Shown one piece after another: positions 12,778-27,365 of a DNA stretch of 64,000 nucleotides (position 1 is its first letter; each line of letters opens with the position of its first letter). The translations under genes and the position numbers were made by a program. The notes beneath the pieces are model-generated. The model ran no database searches and was not told the origin of the DNA. It was given only the letters and a program-made list of their open reading frames with translations. Origin of the DNA: a candidate division Zixibacteria bacterium SM23_81 (GTDB lineage Bacteria; SM23-81); assembly GCA_001304015.1 (NCBI GenBank), contig LJUY01000011.1:26652-90651 (forward strand), in the 5' to 3' direction.

Positions 12778-14043
12778 TTAATCTCTGTGCACCTCCAGCA
12801 ACCCATCCACGAAGGCTGCGGGAAGACGCAACATTCTGTAATAACCCTGGCGGTGCCTACCTATGACAACTGGATTCAACCACTCCCACACCAATTCTCC
12901 CTCGTGGGTCACTTCGAATACTCGCCCTTGATCACTTTCAGAGATGAAGGTGTTCCCGTTGGGAAGTCGCTGGGCTGCGCCTTTTCTGCAGGAGTAAAAA
13001 TCATCTGGCGGATCCGCCATGTACTCCCACACAATGTACTCAGCAAGGGGATCTAGCTCCACCACCCTGGAGTACCTGCGCTGGGTGCCATTGTCGAATA
13101 CGAGAATGTGACCATTTGGTAACATCGTCGGATGGTGTGGCTCCTCCAGATTACCCTCGCCCCAGGCCCACAGGACGCGGTAGGTGTCTTTCTCCAACAC
13201 GGCGATTTGGTTCACATTTCGGAAACAGACCAGCAAATTGCCCCGCTGAAAGCGCCCATCTTTCTCTCCCAAGTCGTTATCCGGAATTATGTTGACTGTA
13301 TTCATGTGAAAATATTCTAAGTCTCGATGCACACGCAGCCTCCCGGGCGAAGCCGAGATTTTGCTCTCGGGAGGTGAGCTGCCACGGGTGCTGTCGAGGA
13401 CAGTGTCCAGAAACGACCTGGTGTCGAGAACGCCTTTGAGTTGGGCCAAATTTTTATATGAAGACCACCTATCCAGCTCCTCTCCCTTGGCACTTATATG
13501 CACCAGAGCATCGAACCACACTTGCTTGTCTCTGTGTGCCCAGCGCTCCTTCACGATGGCGTAGAACGAACCATCTGGCGCCTGAGCCACGTCATGGTGG
13601 GCCGACATCTTCTTTCTCCATATTAGGTCTGAATCCCAGTTAAGCCGGAGCAAATCTCCAACTTTTATGACCATCAGATCTCCGTTCTCCAACAAGACGG
13701 CGTGGTCGGCGATGACACCGCCCCTAGAGGAGTATTCCCAGCGATGCACTTCTTGCCCCATCATGTCCAACAAGAACGCCTTCCCAGAGTGGTTGGTACA
13801 GTAAAAGTTGTAGCCAGCATAGCTCTTCTCCGGATCATAGAGAACAACCCCAGCCTCGTTCGCATCGACGAGGTCTTCGGAGTGGGAAATATAGGGTACG
13901 GAGCGTAGCATCTCTAACCGCTGATACCAGTCCGGCTTTTTCGAGGTAGCCTCATCGGCTAAGGTCCCAAATGGAATGGACAGGAGGAACAAGCCCGGCA
14001 TAACCATCCTCATCAGTGTTCGCGTGTGACCGTAAAAGTTCAT
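12778..14043 (-). CDS. Exported arylsulfotransferase-like beta-propeller protein (copy 3)
   Basis: One of three tandem paralogs. The 421-residue protein starts MNFYGHTRTLMRMVM with a signal peptide ending near GTLADE. The body has propeller-type repeats with the family blocks AHHDVAQAPDGSFYA, EYFHMNTVNIIP, EEPHHPTMLPNGHILVFDNG and RLPNGNTFISESDQG, which match the arylsulfotransferase (ASST) superfamily. True bacterial ASST transfers sulfate between phenols using a His; the paired His in these blocks are kept, but substrate is unknown. The start overlaps the stop of copy 2 by an ATGA and has GGAGGTGGTGGG upstream, so translation is coupled. The three copies sit between the carboxyltransferase and the LiuC-like gene of the leucine block. 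Confidence 0.87.
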   Translation of the reverse strand: MNFYGHTRTLMRMVMPGLFLLSIPFGTLADEATSKKPDWYQRLEMLRSVPYISHSEDLVDANEAGVVLYDPEKSYAGYNFYCTNHSGKAFLLDMMGQEVHRWEYSSRGGVIADHAVLLENGDLMVIKVGDLLRLNWDSDLIWRKKMSAHHDVAQAPDGSFYAIVKERWAHRDKQVWFDALVHISAKGEELDRWSSYKNLAQLKGVLDTRSFLDTVLDSTRGSSPPESKISASPGRLRVHRDLEYFHMNTVNIIPDNDLGEKDGRFQRGNLLVCFRNVNQIAVLEKDTYRVLWAWGEGNLEEPHHPTMLPNGHILVFDNGTQRRYSRVVELDPLAEYIVWEYMADPPDDFYSCRKGAAQRLPNGNTFISESDQGRVFEVTHEGELVWEWLNPVVIGRHRQGYYRMLRLPAAFVDGLLEVHRD

Positions 14044-15422
14044 TCCCACCACCTCCACCTCTGCTGCAGCTTGTCCACCTGGGCTTTGGGCAGGCGCGTC
14101 AACCTGTAGAGGGTCTCGCGGCGCCCATCTCTGATGGACGGATTTAACCAGGTCCACACCACTTCTCCCTGCTGGGTCACCTCGAAAACATGCCCTTTAT
14201 CGCTTTCACAGATGAGCGTATTCCCATTGGGAAGCCGCTGGGCTGAACCTCTGCCAAAGGAAAAAAAATCCTCCGGTGGCTCCGCCATGTACTCCCAGAC
14301 AATGGCCCCGGCTACGGGATCCAGCTCCACCACCCGGGAGTATTCGCGCTCGACTCCATTGTCGAATATCAGGATATGGCCGTCTTCCAGCATCGTCGGA
14401 TGATGGGGCCACTGCAACTGGCCCTCGCCCCAGGCCCACAGGACGCGGTAGGTGCCCTTTTCCAACACAGCGATCTGGTTGACATTCCGGAAACAGACCA
14501 ACAAATTTCCCATCTGAAATCGCGAATCTCTTTCTCCTAATCCAGTAGCCGGGAGCACGCCGATGGTATTGGTGTGAAAGTAGTCCAGGCCACCACGACG
14601 CAGGGCCAACTCCTTCTTAACTTCAGCCGACCTCCTGTCCTCCTGCGATGGGTCACTTTGGAGGTGTACGTGAAAGCGGCCGATTTCCTTGCCACTATGC
14701 GTTTTTGTTTTCTTAACCACGTCCGGCTTCCTATCCTCTGGCGACCAGACACAGAGGGCGCTGTCCAGAATGGAGTCCAGAAACGACCTCGTGTCCAGAA
14801 CGCTCTTGATCTCGGCCAAATGATCGTAAGTGTTCCACCTATCGATTTCCTCTCCGTCCGGCGTCAAATGCACTATAGCGTCGACCCTCACCCTCATCCC
14901 CCTGTGAGTTATGTACTCTCGGACGGCGACATAAAAGGATCCATCAGGTGCTGGAGCCACGTCATGATGCACCGCCAGTTCCTTTTTCCAGATCAGCTTC
15001 GAGTCCCAGTCGAGGCGGAACAGTTCCTGAAACATTTTGATGACTACTAAATCTCCGTTCTCCAACATAACGGCGTGCTCGGAGCCGCTGATCTCTTTCT
15101 GGGGGATATATGTCCATCTGTGCACCACCTGGCCGTCAATGTCCAACAACAAAGCCTCGCCGGATGAGCTGGTGCAGTAAAGATTATAGCCTTCACAGGC
15201 TTTCTCTGGATCATAGAACAAAACGCCAGCTTCGCTCTCATTGGCCATGGATTCGGTCAAACTAACATAGGGCATAGAACGGAGCATTTCCAGCTGCTTT
15301 TTCCAACCTTCTGGCTTCTTCGAGGTCCGTTCGTCGCCCCGGATGCTCGTTGAAACCGAGATCAGAACCAGGCTCAGCACAACTATCCTCACCAGTCTCC
15401 GCTTGTAACTGCAAAAGCTCAT
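14040..15422 (-). CDS. Exported arylsulfotransferase-like beta-propeller protein (copy 2)
   Basis: The 460-residue middle paralog. It has the same signal-peptide layout (MSFCSYKRRLVRIVVLSLVL..) and the same blocks: VHHDVAPAPDGSFYV, LDYFHTNTIGVLP, QWPHHPTMLEDGHILIFDNG and RLPNGNTLICESDKG. Relative to the others it carries a ~40-residue hydrophilic insert (about residues 225-270, with many Lys, Glu and Asp) just before the DYFHTN block. I chose MSFCSYK because it aligns with the MNFYGH start of copy 3; an ATG four codons upstream overlaps the stop of copy 1 and is also possible. Both neighbours overlap or nearly overlap, so the trio is one transcription unit. Confidence 0.86.
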   Translation of the reverse strand: MSFCSYKRRLVRIVVLSLVLISVSTSIRGDERTSKKPEGWKKQLEMLRSMPYVSLTESMANESEAGVLFYDPEKACEGYNLYCTSSSGEALLLDIDGQVVHRWTYIPQKEISGSEHAVMLENGDLVVIKMFQELFRLDWDSKLIWKKELAVHHDVAPAPDGSFYVAVREYITHRGMRVRVDAIVHLTPDGEEIDRWNTYDHLAEIKSVLDTRSFLDSILDSALCVWSPEDRKPDVVKKTKTHSGKEIGRFHVHLQSDPSQEDRRSAEVKKELALRRGGLDYFHTNTIGVLPATGLGERDSRFQMGNLLVCFRNVNQIAVLEKGTYRVLWAWGEGQLQWPHHPTMLEDGHILIFDNGVEREYSRVVELDPVAGAIVWEYMAEPPEDFFSFGRGSAQRLPNGNTLICESDKGHVFEVTQQGEVVWTWLNPSIRDGRRETLYRLTRLPKAQVDKLQQRWRWWE

Positions 15423-15433
15423 TCCCGCCGCCA

Positions 15434-16693
15434 TTACCTTTTCATAAACCTGTCCACCTGTTCTTCAGGAACGCGCGTCATCCTATAGACAGTAGCGCGG
15501 CTCTGCTTACCGACCATCGGACTTAACCACTTCCACACCATTTCCCCATCCATGGTCACCTCGAAAGCCCGCCCCTTATTACTCTCACAGATGAGCGTAT
15601 TCCCGTTGGGAAGCCGCTGAGTCGAACCTCTGTCGTATGAGTAAAAATCCTCAGGCACCTCTGCCATGTACTCCCAGACAATAGCCTCTGTCACGGGGTC
15701 CAGCTCCACTACTCGGGAGTATTTGCGCTTGATGCCATTGTCGAAGATGAGTATATGACCATTGGGCAGCATCGTCGGTTGGTGTGGCCATTCCAATTGA
15801 CCCTCGCCCCAAGCCCAGAGCACACGATAGGTATCCTTTTCCAACACAGCTATCTGGTTTACGTTCCGGAAACAGACCAGCAAATTACCCATCTGAAATC
15901 GTGAATCTTTTCTTCCCAAAGGTGTGGCCGGGAGTAGATTCACAGTATTCATGTGAAAGTAATCGCGTTGGTAGCGGGACAGTATCCTGTACTCAGCTTC
16001 ATCAAAGTTTTCACCCCTTTCCGACCAGTCAGCAAGAAGACCATCCAGAGCTGTGTCCAGAAACGACCTGGTGTCGAGAACGTTCCTGATGTCAGCCAAA
16101 TGATCATAGGTGGACCACATATCGATTTCTTCGCCGTCCGCCGTCATATGCACAAGGGTGTCGAACAACACTGACAATCCCCTGTGGGTTTTAGTCTCTT
16201 GAACGATGACGTAAAACGAGCCATCAGGTGCTGGAGCCACATCATGATGCACCGCCAGTGTCCTTCTCCAGATTAGCTCCGAGTCCCAATTGATCCGAAG
16301 CAGCCCCATCAATTTCACTATGATCAGCTCTCCGCTTTCCAGCATGACGGCATGACGGGAGAAGTTGCCCTGTAATCGCGGATAAGTCCATCGGTGTACC
16401 ACTCGGCCCTCCATGTCCAGCAAAAAAACCTCTCCAGACGACCAGGCGCAGTATAAGTTATATCCGCTATAGGCCTTCTCTGGATTATAGAGCACCACGC
16501 CGGTGTCGGTCTCATCAACGGCGGTTTCGGAGTAACCAACATAAGGCACAGAGCGGAGCATCTCCAGCCGCCTTATCCACTCTTCGGATTTCCTCGAGGT
16601 TTCTTCGTCAGCCCGGCTGCTCGTTGAGATTAAGACCAGACTCAAAACCAGCAAGAGTATCGTCGCAAACTCGACGGTTCGTATACTCTCCAG
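15434..16693 (-). CDS. Exported arylsulfotransferase-like beta-propeller protein (copy 1), probable CTG start
   Basis: First-transcribed paralog, about 419 residues, with blocks VHHDVAPAPDGSFYV, DYFHMNTVNLLP, EWPHQPTMLPNGHILIFDNG and RLPNGNTLICESNKG. Note HQP in place of HHP in the third block. No ATG or GTG exists at the expected N-terminus. A CTG at 16693 lies 7 bases after GAGGAG and directly after an in-frame TAG; it would give MESIRTVEFATILLLVLSLVL, a signal peptide aligning with copy 2. The first conventional alternative, TTG at 16654, has no ribosome-binding sequence and would delete the signal peptide's charged end. The methylcrotonyl-CoA carboxyltransferase gene ends 65 bases upstream. 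Confidence 0.85.
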   Translation of the reverse strand: MESIRTVEFATILLLVLSLVLISTSSRADEETSRKSEEWIRRLEMLRSVPYVGYSETAVDETDTGVVLYNPEKAYSGYNLYCAWSSGEVFLLDMEGRVVHRWTYPRLQGNFSRHAVMLESGELIIVKLMGLLRINWDSELIWRRTLAVHHDVAPAPDGSFYVIVQETKTHRGLSVLFDTLVHMTADGEEIDMWSTYDHLADIRNVLDTRSFLDTALDGLLADWSERGENFDEAEYRILSRYQRDYFHMNTVNLLPATPLGRKDSRFQMGNLLVCFRNVNQIAVLEKDTYRVLWAWGEGQLEWPHQPTMLPNGHILIFDNGIKRKYSRVVELDPVTEAIVWEYMAEVPEDFYSYDRGSTQRLPNGNTLICESNKGRAFEVTMDGEMVWKWLSPMVGKQSRATVYRMTRVPEEQVDRFMKR

Positions 16694-22718: not shown

Positions 22719-23960
22719 TTATCTACCTAGCCTTTCATCTATTTCTTGCCAATGAGTCTCTTCTATCGGTTTTCGAAGAAAATGCAGGATTCTTTTTTCC
22801 TTCAGCCCGTCCCATTTCATAGCAATTGCTCTCCTAGCGGCTTGCTTAATTTCCTTCTCTGATTTTACGTCAATCACTACAATCTGGGGACCTTTAGTTC
22901 TTGGATCACAAAGCCAATCTATGATTCTTGCGTTAATACCTTTATCTCCAAAACTATATCCACTTATGACCACGCTATCGCTTTTATTCAATGATGTATG
23001 TAGTTGACAATACATATGAGTATATACGCCACTTGTATATTCTAGCATCTTATTGAACGTGCCAAGCAATATTAAATGACGGCTAGGTAAAAGCTCACGC
23101 CCTTCAGAATCCTTTATGCGGGCAATATCCGCCTTCCAAGGAATAACTATCCTGTCGTATCTCCAATCTCCATTAGGAATCCCAATTCTTCGCCAGTTTA
23201 CGGATCCATGTAGCTTAAATACACGAACTTTAATCGATTCCATAGAATACTCATTTGGATTCCAATATCTGAGTTGACTCCCTGGTTCACCTTTAGGTTT
23301 GCTGAAGCCATCTGTAAATCCCACATCTTCATTATGTAGACAGCTCTCTAATACTAAATCATGATTTAAAGTAAAGATATCAACATAGGAAATACGGTCA
23401 TTCCTGCAAGCAGCCATTATGCTGTTCAAGTGATCCAGACGACAGGGTTCCTTATTAAGCGAGTTCAAGGCTATGTCATGAATGTAATTAGTGACCTCTT
23501 CTGTATAATTCAGTAACTCTCCCTCAAAATCTCGAGGATTCCAAACACCCCGCCCAATTGTCTCCATAATCCGATTCTTGATTTCAGGCTTATTGAAGAT
23601 TTTATCAATAAGGGGTCGAACCGCAGGATTATCATAATTACCTGATAAATTGTCACGAATTTGACTAGCCATATAGAAAAGATCTTCATAATTAGGAAAT
23701 CTGCCTTTGATATAATCTTTAATTTCACCAAATAAAACATATAAATAATTTAAGTTGTGGCGAATATGGTACTCTGAATTTCGCGAATAGGCAGCTGCTT
23801 GATCTTTATCTATGAAGCGATATTCTCCATCTGAATCTCGGCATATTCCCTCACCTGAGAGTACTGTTTCAGTAATACTACCAGTTGAAGGCATCTGAGC
23901 AGGTATTGAAACTCCAGCACCAAGCAAAAAGACTATTCGCGACTTATATGTAAACTCCAT
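22719..23960 (-). CDS. SIR2-like domain protein (candidate defence effector)
   Basis: A 413-residue SIR2-superfamily protein. The NAD-binding signature FLLGAGVSIPAQMPSTG lies at residues 11-27, FTLNHD at 196-201, the probable catalytic His251 in KLHGSVNW, and ISGYSFGDKGIN at 333-344. No zinc-binding Cys quartet of deacetylating sirtuins is visible, so it matches the SIR2-like group used as NAD-consuming effectors in anti-phage systems. The start follows AAAGGATTATA. The HEPN-type gene ends 44 bases upstream in the same direction, so the two are probably one operon. Base composition is much lower in GC than the catabolic cluster, suggesting transfer. It could instead be a DNA- or RNA-linked NAD-binding enzyme of other function. 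Confidence 0.85.
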   Translation of the reverse strand: MEFTYKSRIVFLLGAGVSIPAQMPSTGSITETVLSGEGICRDSDGEYRFIDKDQAAAYSRNSEYHIRHNLNYLYVLFGEIKDYIKGRFPNYEDLFYMASQIRDNLSGNYDNPAVRPLIDKIFNKPEIKNRIMETIGRGVWNPRDFEGELLNYTEEVTNYIHDIALNSLNKEPCRLDHLNSIMAACRNDRISYVDIFTLNHDLVLESCLHNEDVGFTDGFSKPKGEPGSQLRYWNPNEYSMESIKVRVFKLHGSVNWRRIGIPNGDWRYDRIVIPWKADIARIKDSEGRELLPSRHLILLGTFNKMLEYTSGVYTHMYCQLHTSLNKSDSVVISGYSFGDKGINARIIDWLCDPRTKGPQIVVIDVKSEKEIKQAARRAIAMKWDGLKEKRILHFLRKPIEETHWQEIDERLGR

Positions 23961-24004: not shown

Positions 24005-25099
24005 TTAAGTTTCCAAAAAACTTATACCTTTTTTATACAGTTTAACACGTTTTTTTAACAATGAAATGTCATCTGGGAGATCCAGAAATTGCTCCATTTC
24101 CTCTACACTTGAGTATTTGGGTCCCTCAAAAATGTGATAAGTTAACAATTTCTCTACATATCTTTTTAGTTGATAAACTAATGACTCAATTATTTCAACA
24201 GATTGTTCTGATTCATGTACATATTTATTTCTATAATCTTTTAAAATCCTCAGAGTCTGATTGTGATAATCACGGTTTTGAAAAAAGAAAATAGCTCGTT
24301 TTATTGCATCTTTGGAGGTTTGTGGGTTAAAAGTTAGAGATTCTAATAGACTCCAAAGTTCTAAAAATGATTTATTTAGATCAGATTCATCAAGCGCTTG
24401 AGAGTATTTCAAAATCATTCTCTGCAATTCTTGCCGATATTTGCTCTTTGAGATATTTTTCCTAATAAGCTGCTCATATTTCCGCAAGTCATCCCAATCC
24501 TTGCTAATATCTTTACACGTTGAGATTTTTTCATAATTAGGCCTATACCAGAATGTTTCAGTTGCAAGTTCACCGGTCAGATTATGCAAAGTATGAAAGG
24601 GCCCTAAAATTATCTGATTTATTCTTCCTGGCTTGCCAAAAGTCATTCTAGACAAATTCACTTGGTTATAATAGAAATTCCATATTGCTCGAAGTAGATC
24701 AATTGTATCTATTGCCTTAGAACTGGCTTCATAGACTGAGCGAGCTCTAACCTTCACTATAGCAACTGTATAATCTTTCGGAAAATCGCTATGAATAAAA
24801 CGACGTGCCTTTTTTGGGATTTCTCCTCTATTATATTTTTGAGGAATATATCGTTTAAATATAATGCTGCAATCTGAAATGCGAATCCACTTAAGCATCT
24901 CAAAGTATTTTATAGAAATATTTGTTATCAATAAATATGATTGTCTAACTTGCTTTTTAAACGCATTTTCTTTTTTGTTTATTTCTCTTAAAACAGTTTG
25001 CGCTGTAAATTTCTTCATTCTTCCCGCATGTTGAATAGCCTCTCTCACTATTCTTTCCTTTTCTATCTCTGGTAATACTTCTGAAAAGTTGACACACAA
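24005..25099 (-). CDS. HEPN (ApeA-like) domain protein (candidate RNase)
   Basis: A 364-residue protein with no signal peptide. The C-terminal part (about residues 240-325) has the pattern FLELWSLLESLT followed by LKDYRNKYVHES, where R290 and H295 form the R-x4-H motif of HEPN ribonucleases, in an arrangement like ApeA-type HEPN domains. The N-terminal 230 residues are not recognised. The listed start is TTG without a clear ribosome-binding sequence. The frame stays open and coding-like to 25180 (ADGLTERVKQLLFSGLG and onward), beginning at an ATA nine bases after AGGA, so the true N-terminus may lie about 27 codons upstream. The region is very AT-rich; one 60-base line at 24001 has only 15 G or C. 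SIR2-like gene 44 bases downstream. Confidence 0.75.
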   Translation of the reverse strand: MCVNFSEVLPEIEKERIVREAIQHAGRMKKFTAQTVLREINKKENAFKKQVRQSYLLITNISIKYFEMLKWIRISDCSIIFKRYIPQKYNRGEIPKKARRFIHSDFPKDYTVAIVKVRARSVYEASSKAIDTIDLLRAIWNFYYNQVNLSRMTFGKPGRINQIILGPFHTLHNLTGELATETFWYRPNYEKISTCKDISKDWDDLRKYEQLIRKNISKSKYRQELQRMILKYSQALDESDLNKSFLELWSLLESLTFNPQTSKDAIKRAIFFFQNRDYHNQTLRILKDYRNKYVHESEQSVEIIESLVYQLKRYVEKLLTYHIFEGPKYSSVEEMEQFLDLPDDISLLKKRVKLYKKGISFLET

Positions 25100-25303
25100 T
25101 ATTATTTGAGTAATATAATCTTCAACCCCTAATCCACTAAAAGTAGCTGCTTTACCCTTTCTGTAAGTCCGTCTGCTATTCAGTTTTTTCCTACAACTTG
25201 CGGATCATAATCTTTTTTCCATCGAGCGCACATAGTTTTTTTCCATCGAAATTAAATTTTGATATCATAGATTCTACTTTTCATTATTCCAAATCCCTTC
25301 CTC

Positions 25304-25386
25304 TCACCCCACCAAAACCCACCCGATCAGGAGCAAGATCAGCACAATTTCCGCCACCACGTTAAACCTCGCTCGCTGATGATCGG
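25304..25386 (-). pseudogene. Remnant of a TauE/SafE permease 3' end
   Basis: Positions 25304-25386 align with the last ~85 bases of the intact TauE/SafE gene (26339-26425), stop codon included. By hand about three quarters of positions match, with one codon missing and a single-base deletion near 25372. The remnant reads RFNVVAEIVLILLLIG, then WVLVG and stop, against KFNLVVGIVLVLIALRIG, then WGLVG. Similarity stops abruptly near 25386. It lies downstream of the HNH gene, which thus sits between two copies of the same gene end. Confidence 0.75.
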
Positions 25387-25429
25387 GTTATTTTTAAATC
25401 GAATCAGCAATCTTATTGTGATCTGGTAT

Positions 25430-26293
25430 CTACAGATCTTTTTCTTTTGGAATTTTCAAATTATGATCAAGTTTCCTAACTTCCCACGGGGATTGTTTCT
25501 GATAATTTCCAGCTTTTAGCTCTTCCCAAAACTTCTTATGTGCAATACGAAGAACTTTCTGCACATAAAATTGTGCCCTCTTTGATTTTCGTGACCAGTC
25601 TATTTTATTCCATTCTTCCTCGCTTAACATACAACGGTCAAAAAGTCTATGATGAGTGGGACAAAGTAGAAGAACATTACCCATACCTTTCCCTCCCCTT
25701 AAACGAGAAGGAATAATATGACAAACATCTATAGCGCGGTTTTCGCCACAAATCTCACAAGGAATATTTTGCTTCAGCACAGCCTCATTTGTAAGCTTAT
25801 GAAATGTTGCTCTTACGTAAGTTCCTTTTTGGAAAGGACGATTTTCAGACGGTTTAAGAAAGGTCTCCCTAAAAATTCTAAATACCTCCTCCTCTAATAA
25901 ATGTATCAAAAGCAGGCTGGAACCGCCGCGATGTTCTATGGCTTTTTTCTCAAAACTACGAAATATTTTTCCCAACTCATCAAGCATAACTTGAAACTCT
26001 TCATTTGTAAGGCCAGGAGGCCTAATCTCATTTTCCTCGCTGGGCATCGGTATCCATGAGCTTATAGGATTATATTCCTCTTTTTCATCATAGCGAACCA
26101 TGCTTGTTCCATCGAGAGGAACACCATACTTCTTCAAAATCCCTGGCTCGGTTAAAAAAGTTTGAACCGCTTGAACTACTTCGTTTCTTAATCGAATGAA
26201 TGCATTCGGCTCAGCTCTGTACGTTTGATATTCATTGAAAATACGGTGAATATGATCTGTGACTCTAATACGAGGTTTTCGAATTTCATCCAT
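25430..26293 (-). CDS. HNH endonuclease-domain protein
   Basis: A 287-residue protein with a C-terminal HNH nuclease domain: zinc pair CEIC (residues 179-182), the DVCHIIPSR segment with the first His192, GMGNVLLLCPTHHRLFD with Asn206 and the second zinc/His set (211-215). The N-terminal 170 residues are helical and not recognised; they probably give target specificity. The start MDEIRKPRI follows AGGAGGTTTTC. It is lower in GC than the neighbouring permease gene. The intact permease ends 45 bases upstream and a diverged copy of that permease's end lies 45 bases downstream, suggesting acquisition at this site. Role may be restriction of invading DNA or mobility of the segment itself. Confidence 0.88.
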   Translation of the reverse strand: MDEIRKPRIRVTDHIHRIFNEYQTYRAEPNAFIRLRNEVVQAVQTFLTEPGILKKYGVPLDGTSMVRYDEKEEYNPISSWIPMPSEENEIRPPGLTNEEFQVMLDELGKIFRSFEKKAIEHRGGSSLLLIHLLEEEVFRIFRETFLKPSENRPFQKGTYVRATFHKLTNEAVLKQNIPCEICGENRAIDVCHIIPSRLRGGKGMGNVLLLCPTHHRLFDRCMLSEEEWNKIDWSRKSKRAQFYVQKVLRIAHKKFWEELKAGNYQKQSPWEVRKLDHNLKIPKEKDL

Positions 26294-26338
26294 GAAAACC
26301 TCCTATGAAAAAAAAGAAACTCGCATGTTTTCCCCCCC

Positions 26339-27097
26339 TCACCCCACCAACCCCCACCCGATCCTCAGCGCAATGAGGACTAGGACGATTCCCACCACCA
26401 AATTAAACTTACGCTCGCCGATGGTCATGTGCGTCCTGAAGCCAACGAGCAAGCCGATGATCACCCCAGGGCTGGCCAGAACGATTAACCTGACCACCTC
26501 TACATTCCACATCCCTACGGCGCCGTAGACGAACAGCCTCATGGCCCCGCCGATGAACAAAACGGCCACCATCACTTGGCGAAAGCGCGTCTTGTCCATC
26601 AAGGGGCGGGTGACGGCTACCACGAAGGGGCCACTGATGCCCACCAGGCCTCCGGTGAATCCCCCTATCACGCCACCGGCCCAGGGCTTGAAGAATCTAC
26701 TCTTAAAAAATCTGGGCGGCAGAGGAAGATCATAGAGAATGAAATTTGCCCCGAAAAATAGAACGAACAGACCAATCAATCCCAGAACGAGCTGCGCGGG
26801 CGCGTAGCCAGCCAAGGAAGAACCCACCATGGTTCCCAGAAGCATAAAGCCAGACATGGTCAGGATGAAGCGCCAATCCTCTTTCTCATACCTGATGGCC
26901 AGGAGCATCCCCAACCCCACCAGCAGATCGATGAAGGCTGAGGCGACCAGTGAAATCCTGGGACCCAGTAGTAGCCCCACGGCAGGCACGAACACCATAG
27001 CTGGACCGAAACCCGTCAAGCCTTTCAGAAAGAAGGCTGTCATACAGATGGCCCATATCAGCAGAAGCGTCTCAATCGGGTATCCCAGGATTTCCAG
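26339..27097 (-). CDS. TauE/SafE-family membrane permease, probable CTG start
   Basis: A sulfite-exporter/anion-permease-like integral membrane protein of about 252 residues with seven to eight transmembrane segments. Family features are FFLKGLTGFGPAMV in the first half and FTGGLVGISGPFVV in the second. No ATG or GTG lies at the expected N-terminus; an internal ATG at 27043 would remove most of the first membrane segment. A CTG at 27097 lies five bases after AGGAGG and four codons after an in-frame TAG, giving a normal-length N-terminus MEILGYPIETLLLIWAIC. Its 3' end is duplicated in diverged form beyond the HNH gene. Substrate unknown. Confidence 0.87.
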   Translation of the reverse strand: MEILGYPIETLLLIWAICMTAFFLKGLTGFGPAMVFVPAVGLLLGPRISLVASAFIDLLVGLGMLLAIRYEKEDWRFILTMSGFMLLGTMVGSSLAGYAPAQLVLGLIGLFVLFFGANFILYDLPLPPRFFKSRFFKPWAGGVIGGFTGGLVGISGPFVVAVTRPLMDKTRFRQVMVAVLFIGGAMRLFVYGAVGMWNVEVVRLIVLASPGVIIGLLVGFRTHMTIGERKFNLVVGIVLVLIALRIGWGLVG

Positions 27098-27138
27098 ATA
27101 AACCTCCTAGGGTTTAAAACGGTTGATCTCGAAAATCA

Positions 27139-27185
27139 TTTGGCGGTTTCGAAGCTCGTAACGAGACTCGAGATTCGTGATTCGA
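27139..27185 (+). repeat. 47-bp dispersed repeat, copy A
   Basis: This 47-base block, beginning TTTGGCGGTTTCGAAGCTCG, is identical to the reverse complement of 49111-49157. It is followed by GCTACTGCTATTTCCATTGC-type words and, at about 27247-27300, by inverted ATTCACGATCCACGATTCACG-type words, so the whole gap 27130-27305 is one composite element. It lies between the TauE-like and HAD genes. No ORF or transposase accompanies it. Confidence 0.9.
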
Positions 27186-27365
27186 AAAAACCTGCCAACT
27201 GCTACTGCTATTTCCATTGCTATTGCCGATTTCCTCTGTATTTCTCACGAGTCTCGAATCTCGATTCACGATCCACGATTCACGATCAAAGGTTTTTCAA
27301 GGATCAATCGAGCTTCTTGAATAATCCGGGCTAAAAACGGTTGATAACGAGAAAAGCACAAGCTA

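Follow-up and report, generated by a model that had tools for sequence, protein, structure and literature searches.

The 3' end of a TauE/SafE permease gene recurs in degenerate form, on the same strand, on the far side of a neighboring HNH endonuclease gene in the window (the whole 64,000-nucleotide stretch of DNA analyzed here). The account we tentatively favor is that a small set of defense-type genes came to lie at the permease 3' end and that the degenerate copy is a relic of a second permease. The genes and repeat copies of the locus are as follows:

22719..23960, minus strand: SIR2-like, defense-associated protein (Pfam SIR2_2, E 7.7e-9; PADLOC SIR2, E 5.7e-21; GC3 0.31)
24005..25099, minus strand: HEPN_Apea-like protein (weak match, Pfam E 0.0027, under the curated cut-off; GC3 0.27)
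25300-25384, minus strand: tail copy A, the permease 3' end in degenerate form
25430..26293, minus strand: HNH endonuclease gene, 287 aa (Pfam HNH_2, E 2e-9; C-terminal HNH)
26335-26426, minus strand: tail copy B, functional permease 3' end and a few bases past the stop
26339..27103, minus strand: TauE/SafE permease, 254 aa (Pfam TauE, E 3e-23; its last ~87 bases are copy B)

The duplicated permease 3' end

The repeat of the permease tail is confirmed. Copies A and B align on the same strand with 72.8% identity across 92 columns (E 1.8e-9 by blastn within the window; E 1.8e-7 in a genome-wide search), and a search of the whole genome with copy A returned no significant third copy of the tail. 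The pair has a local alignment score of 88, whereas none of 1000 dinucleotide shuffles scored above 36, and only three of ~5000 random pairs drawn from the window exceeded 88. The recurrence at about three quarters identity, with aligned stop codons, that had been reported in the preliminary description is thus borne out. The end of copy A translates in frame (RFNVVAEIVLI--LLLIGWVLVG before the stop, vs. KFNLVVGIVLVLIALRIGWGLVG in the permease), there is no stop within its 21 codons, and the ~33 bases that lead up to the stop rank with the most strongly conserved portions of the repeat, the similarity perhaps extending weakly to about 25412. Two details of the earlier account required adjustment: the one-base deletion is present, as an upstream frameshift, but is not the sole indel, since closer to the stop copy A is also shorter by a net six bases (two codons); and the HNH gene, said to lie 45 bases from each copy, does so on the copy B side (26294-26338) but is about 43 bases from copy A (25387-25429).

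Tail duplication of this kind is unusual for this genome. In 1.29 Mb, sampled in stretches, we counted 115 local direct repeat pairs of comparable size and score, a rough count as genes were taken to be the longest open frames only. In 101 of the 115, both copies lay inside predicted genes (58 within one single gene), and the permease-tail pair was the sole instance of a gene 3' end paired with an intergenic copy. Gene-size tandem repeats with 64-86% DNA identity are frequent elsewhere in the genome, e.g., in locus L069 and at 12872-16640 of the window, where a tandem paralog family comprises three genes that are ~69-77% identical at the DNA level. A relic of comparable kind was found once, at L069 2644-2786, and consists of a gene start adjoining its parent.

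On the HNH-sense strand, the region of copy A (window 25296-25410) folds as a hairpin (z -2.65). Possibly by co-option, this hairpin could terminate HNH transcription, although terminator-like scans are noisy here. No Rfam match was obtained between positions 20 kb and 30 kb of the window.

Gene content and composition of the locus

The permease is a TauE/SafE protein over essentially its whole length, as evidenced by a Pfam TauE match of 83.2 bits (cut-off 32.6) spanning residues 18-247. Its start was set at GTG 27103, with ATG 27043 as an alternative. Among 386 genomes it has no close relative, the nearest ones having about 30% identity (best 32%), and no second TauE gene was found in this genome. 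The gap between the permease and a HAD hydrolase gene (window 27110-27353) contains a 26-base direct repeat (81%) and 34-base inverted repeats built from GATTCACGATTCACG-like units.

The HNH, HEPN-like, and SIR2-like genes look acquired because they are AT-rich, with GC3 values of 0.31, 0.27, and 0.31, respectively, vs. 0.69 for the permease body. This compositionally foreign block is broken by copy A, which is permease-like in composition (GC 0.55). By Pfam, the genes of the block are only the HNH, HEPN-like, and SIR2 genes, with no recombinase or integrase among them, and a second HNH remnant sought in the 25.1-25.3 kb spacer gave no match. Judged by eye, the frame of the HEPN-like gene (window 24005-25200) extends without a stop for ~90 bases ahead of its TTG start, with no ATG in this extension, making the start tentative.

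The HNH protein and its relatives

The HNH protein scores above the cut-off for HNH_2 (37.6 vs. 21 bits) and has a conserved C-terminal motif, PCEIC...DxCHIIP...LCPTHHxLFD. Its N-terminal part has no fold assignment, and the predicted structure, built from a three-sequence alignment, has a mean pLDDT of 48. The HNH domain matches models of phosphorothioate-DNA (PT-DNA) restriction, SAVED-HNH, and IscB proteins, all weakly, and the SIR2-like neighbor matches anti-phage SIR2 models (E 5.7e-21). The HNH protein resembles homing nucleases no more than it does restriction/defense nucleases, and its neighborhood together with the weak domain matches points to a restriction or defense nuclease rather than a homing one.

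The closest relative of the HNH protein is encoded by Candidatus Scalindua rubra (locus L014), with 53-56% identity. The N-terminal part is conserved there too, but the gene (L014 5890-6753) is frameshifted in that part, which may reflect either a pseudogene or a sequencing error. A second relative, in genome G186 (locus L023), has 46% identity over the HNH part and adjoins a Schlafen/AlbA_2 gene, and the Scalindua phylum supplied seven weaker homologs. Searches of phages, plasmids, and viral contigs turned up no relatives.

The preliminary description had suggested that HNH homologs be searched for the same flanking arrangement, and their flanks proved to be unrelated. No permease lies beside the HNH gene of Scalindua or G186. 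Sequence upstream of each HNH gene was sought downstream and scored against shuffles, with L137 left out as having too little flank. The window scored far above its own shuffles and L014 was level with its shuffles; none of the eight testable loci (Scalindua, G186, and six weak homologs) had a duplicated neighbor end beyond shuffles, the shuffled scores themselves being high for L023, L138, and L140.

Origin of the second tail

In the account that we favor, a small set of horizontally acquired defense-type genes (SIR2-like, HEPN-like, and HNH) would have landed at the permease 3' end. Copy A would be the defunct end of a second, diverged permease, either a tandem paralog or a second allele, whose body was presumably lost as the HNH gene came in, and the HNH protein would most likely be a restriction- or defense-type nuclease, carried in as cargo instead of driving the insertion itself. 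We lean toward a paralog relic because the flanks of the homologs are unrelated, the company of the HNH gene is defense-type, and tandem paralogs are common in this genome. The defense-type match of the SIR2 protein, the weak PT-DNA and SAVED-HNH matches of the HNH domain, and the position of the G186 HNH gene by Schlafen/AlbA_2 are consistent with this. A degraded paralog had been offered in the preliminary description as the alternative to its own proposal, that the HNH gene had arrived with a replacement gene end, and we consider the former at least as likely. Against a relic, there is no trace of the supposed second permease beyond ~100-120 bases, and it takes a coincidence, one not required by replacement of the tail, for everything to be lost except a tail that neatly borders the HNH gene. 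The conservation tests described below are also weak.

Replacement of the tail is the next most probable account, though unlikely in our estimation. It would have the HNH gene inserted at the permease 3' end along with a permease tail that came from a divergent allele; the incoming tail (B) would now end the gene, the native tail (A) would have been displaced downstream and decayed, and the HNH protein would have made the break. On geometry this explanation is favored over a relic because the layout nearly reproduces the gene hybrids formed by mORFs in Glomus and Allomyces mitochondria (PMC3630166). The sizes here also fit mORFs, with a tail of ~87 bases, an ORF of 864 bases, and 73% identity. 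What argues against it is that a duplicated neighbor end was seen at none of the eight testable homolog loci, including that of the 55%-identical Scalindua protein, that no empty site was found among the 386 genomes, in which the closest permease is only 32% identical, that the segment has no recombinase and the genome no third tail copy, and that the neighbors are defense-like. In addition, no HNH_2 protein of this kind is known to have been shown to home. Both replacement and a paralog relic involve two independent tails and lead one to expect divergence of copy A at a time when it still coded, whereas decay after insertion would produce neutral change. When neutral decay of copy B was simulated, the changes seen in copy A came out somewhat more conservative than the simulated ones (identity, P 0.06; BLOSUM, P 0.03), and the test against the family profile was not significant (P 0.19). 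This pattern and the 21 open codons would mildly favor divergence before death, i.e., two independent tails.

A further explanation, which we consider improbable, is that part of the permease was duplicated upon insertion by a Campbell- or repair-type event, so that the tails were identical at first and copy A has since decayed neutrally. The frameshift and other indels of copy A are in keeping with such decay, as is the lack of a clear concentration of differences at third codon positions (12/36, vs. 8/37 and 7/35 at the others). For a bacterial genome whose deletion bias is ordinary, however, it would be unusual to find a neutral stretch of 90 bases that is ~25% diverged, and copy A has changed a little more conservatively than expected under neutrality. 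Lastly, the permease 3' end might be the attachment site of a recombinase-borne island, with the HEPN/SIR2 and HNH genes arriving in successive events. The AT-rich block does lie immediately downstream of the gene end, and the bases preceding the stop are well conserved, but the block genes include no recombinase or integrase and the far edge of the block has no third tail copy, and we regard such a hotspot as very improbable.

Comparison with known systems

Among curated families, NF045808 (NCBIfam, PT-DNA-dependent HNH restriction nucleases) is similar to the HNH protein in length (284 vs. 287 residues) and in its C-terminal HNH (E 1.3e-5). The HNH part alone aligns, however, and at 24.5 bits the match falls far under the 180-bit cut-off. 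The Scalindua rubra and G186 proteins belong to the same HNH family but differ in having neither a permease nor a duplicated neighbor end alongside. Integrative elements that reconstitute the 3' end of a gene share with this locus a duplicated gene end flanking inserted DNA, but carry a recombinase gene, which is absent here, and have identical rather than diverged repeats.

The nearest parallel is provided by the mORFs of fungal mitochondria, known from atp6 of Allomyces and from atp6, atp9, cox2, and nad3 of Glomus (Beaudet et al., PMC3630166). In these, an inserted C-terminal lies in phase with the gene and is followed by an endonuclease ORF of 0.4-1.0 kb, with the native C-terminal 0-250 bases downstream of that ORF; two atp6 tails are 63.5% identical, and inserted tails have 64-81% identity to the gene of a close relative (PMC3630166). 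As in mORFs, an endonuclease ORF that stands on its own, here the HNH gene, separates a functional gene end from a diverged and displaced copy of it on the same strand, and sizes and identities are similar. The Glomus mORFs differ in encoding LAGLIDADG or GIY-YIG endonucleases, in being mitochondrial, and in having relatives with the empty gene, whereas here the nuclease is HNH_2, the host is a prokaryote, the empty allele is not among known genes, and duplicated host-gene ends accompany none of the nuclease homologs at the testable loci. A bacterial counterpart of mORFs, in which a free-standing HNH gene travels with a replacement host 3' end and displaces the native one, seems doubtful. The likelier reading is of one more acquired nuclease gene next to a gene relic; were the counterpart true, a defense-like prokaryotic nuclease gene would have moved by rebuilding the end of its host gene, a route described from fungal mitochondria.
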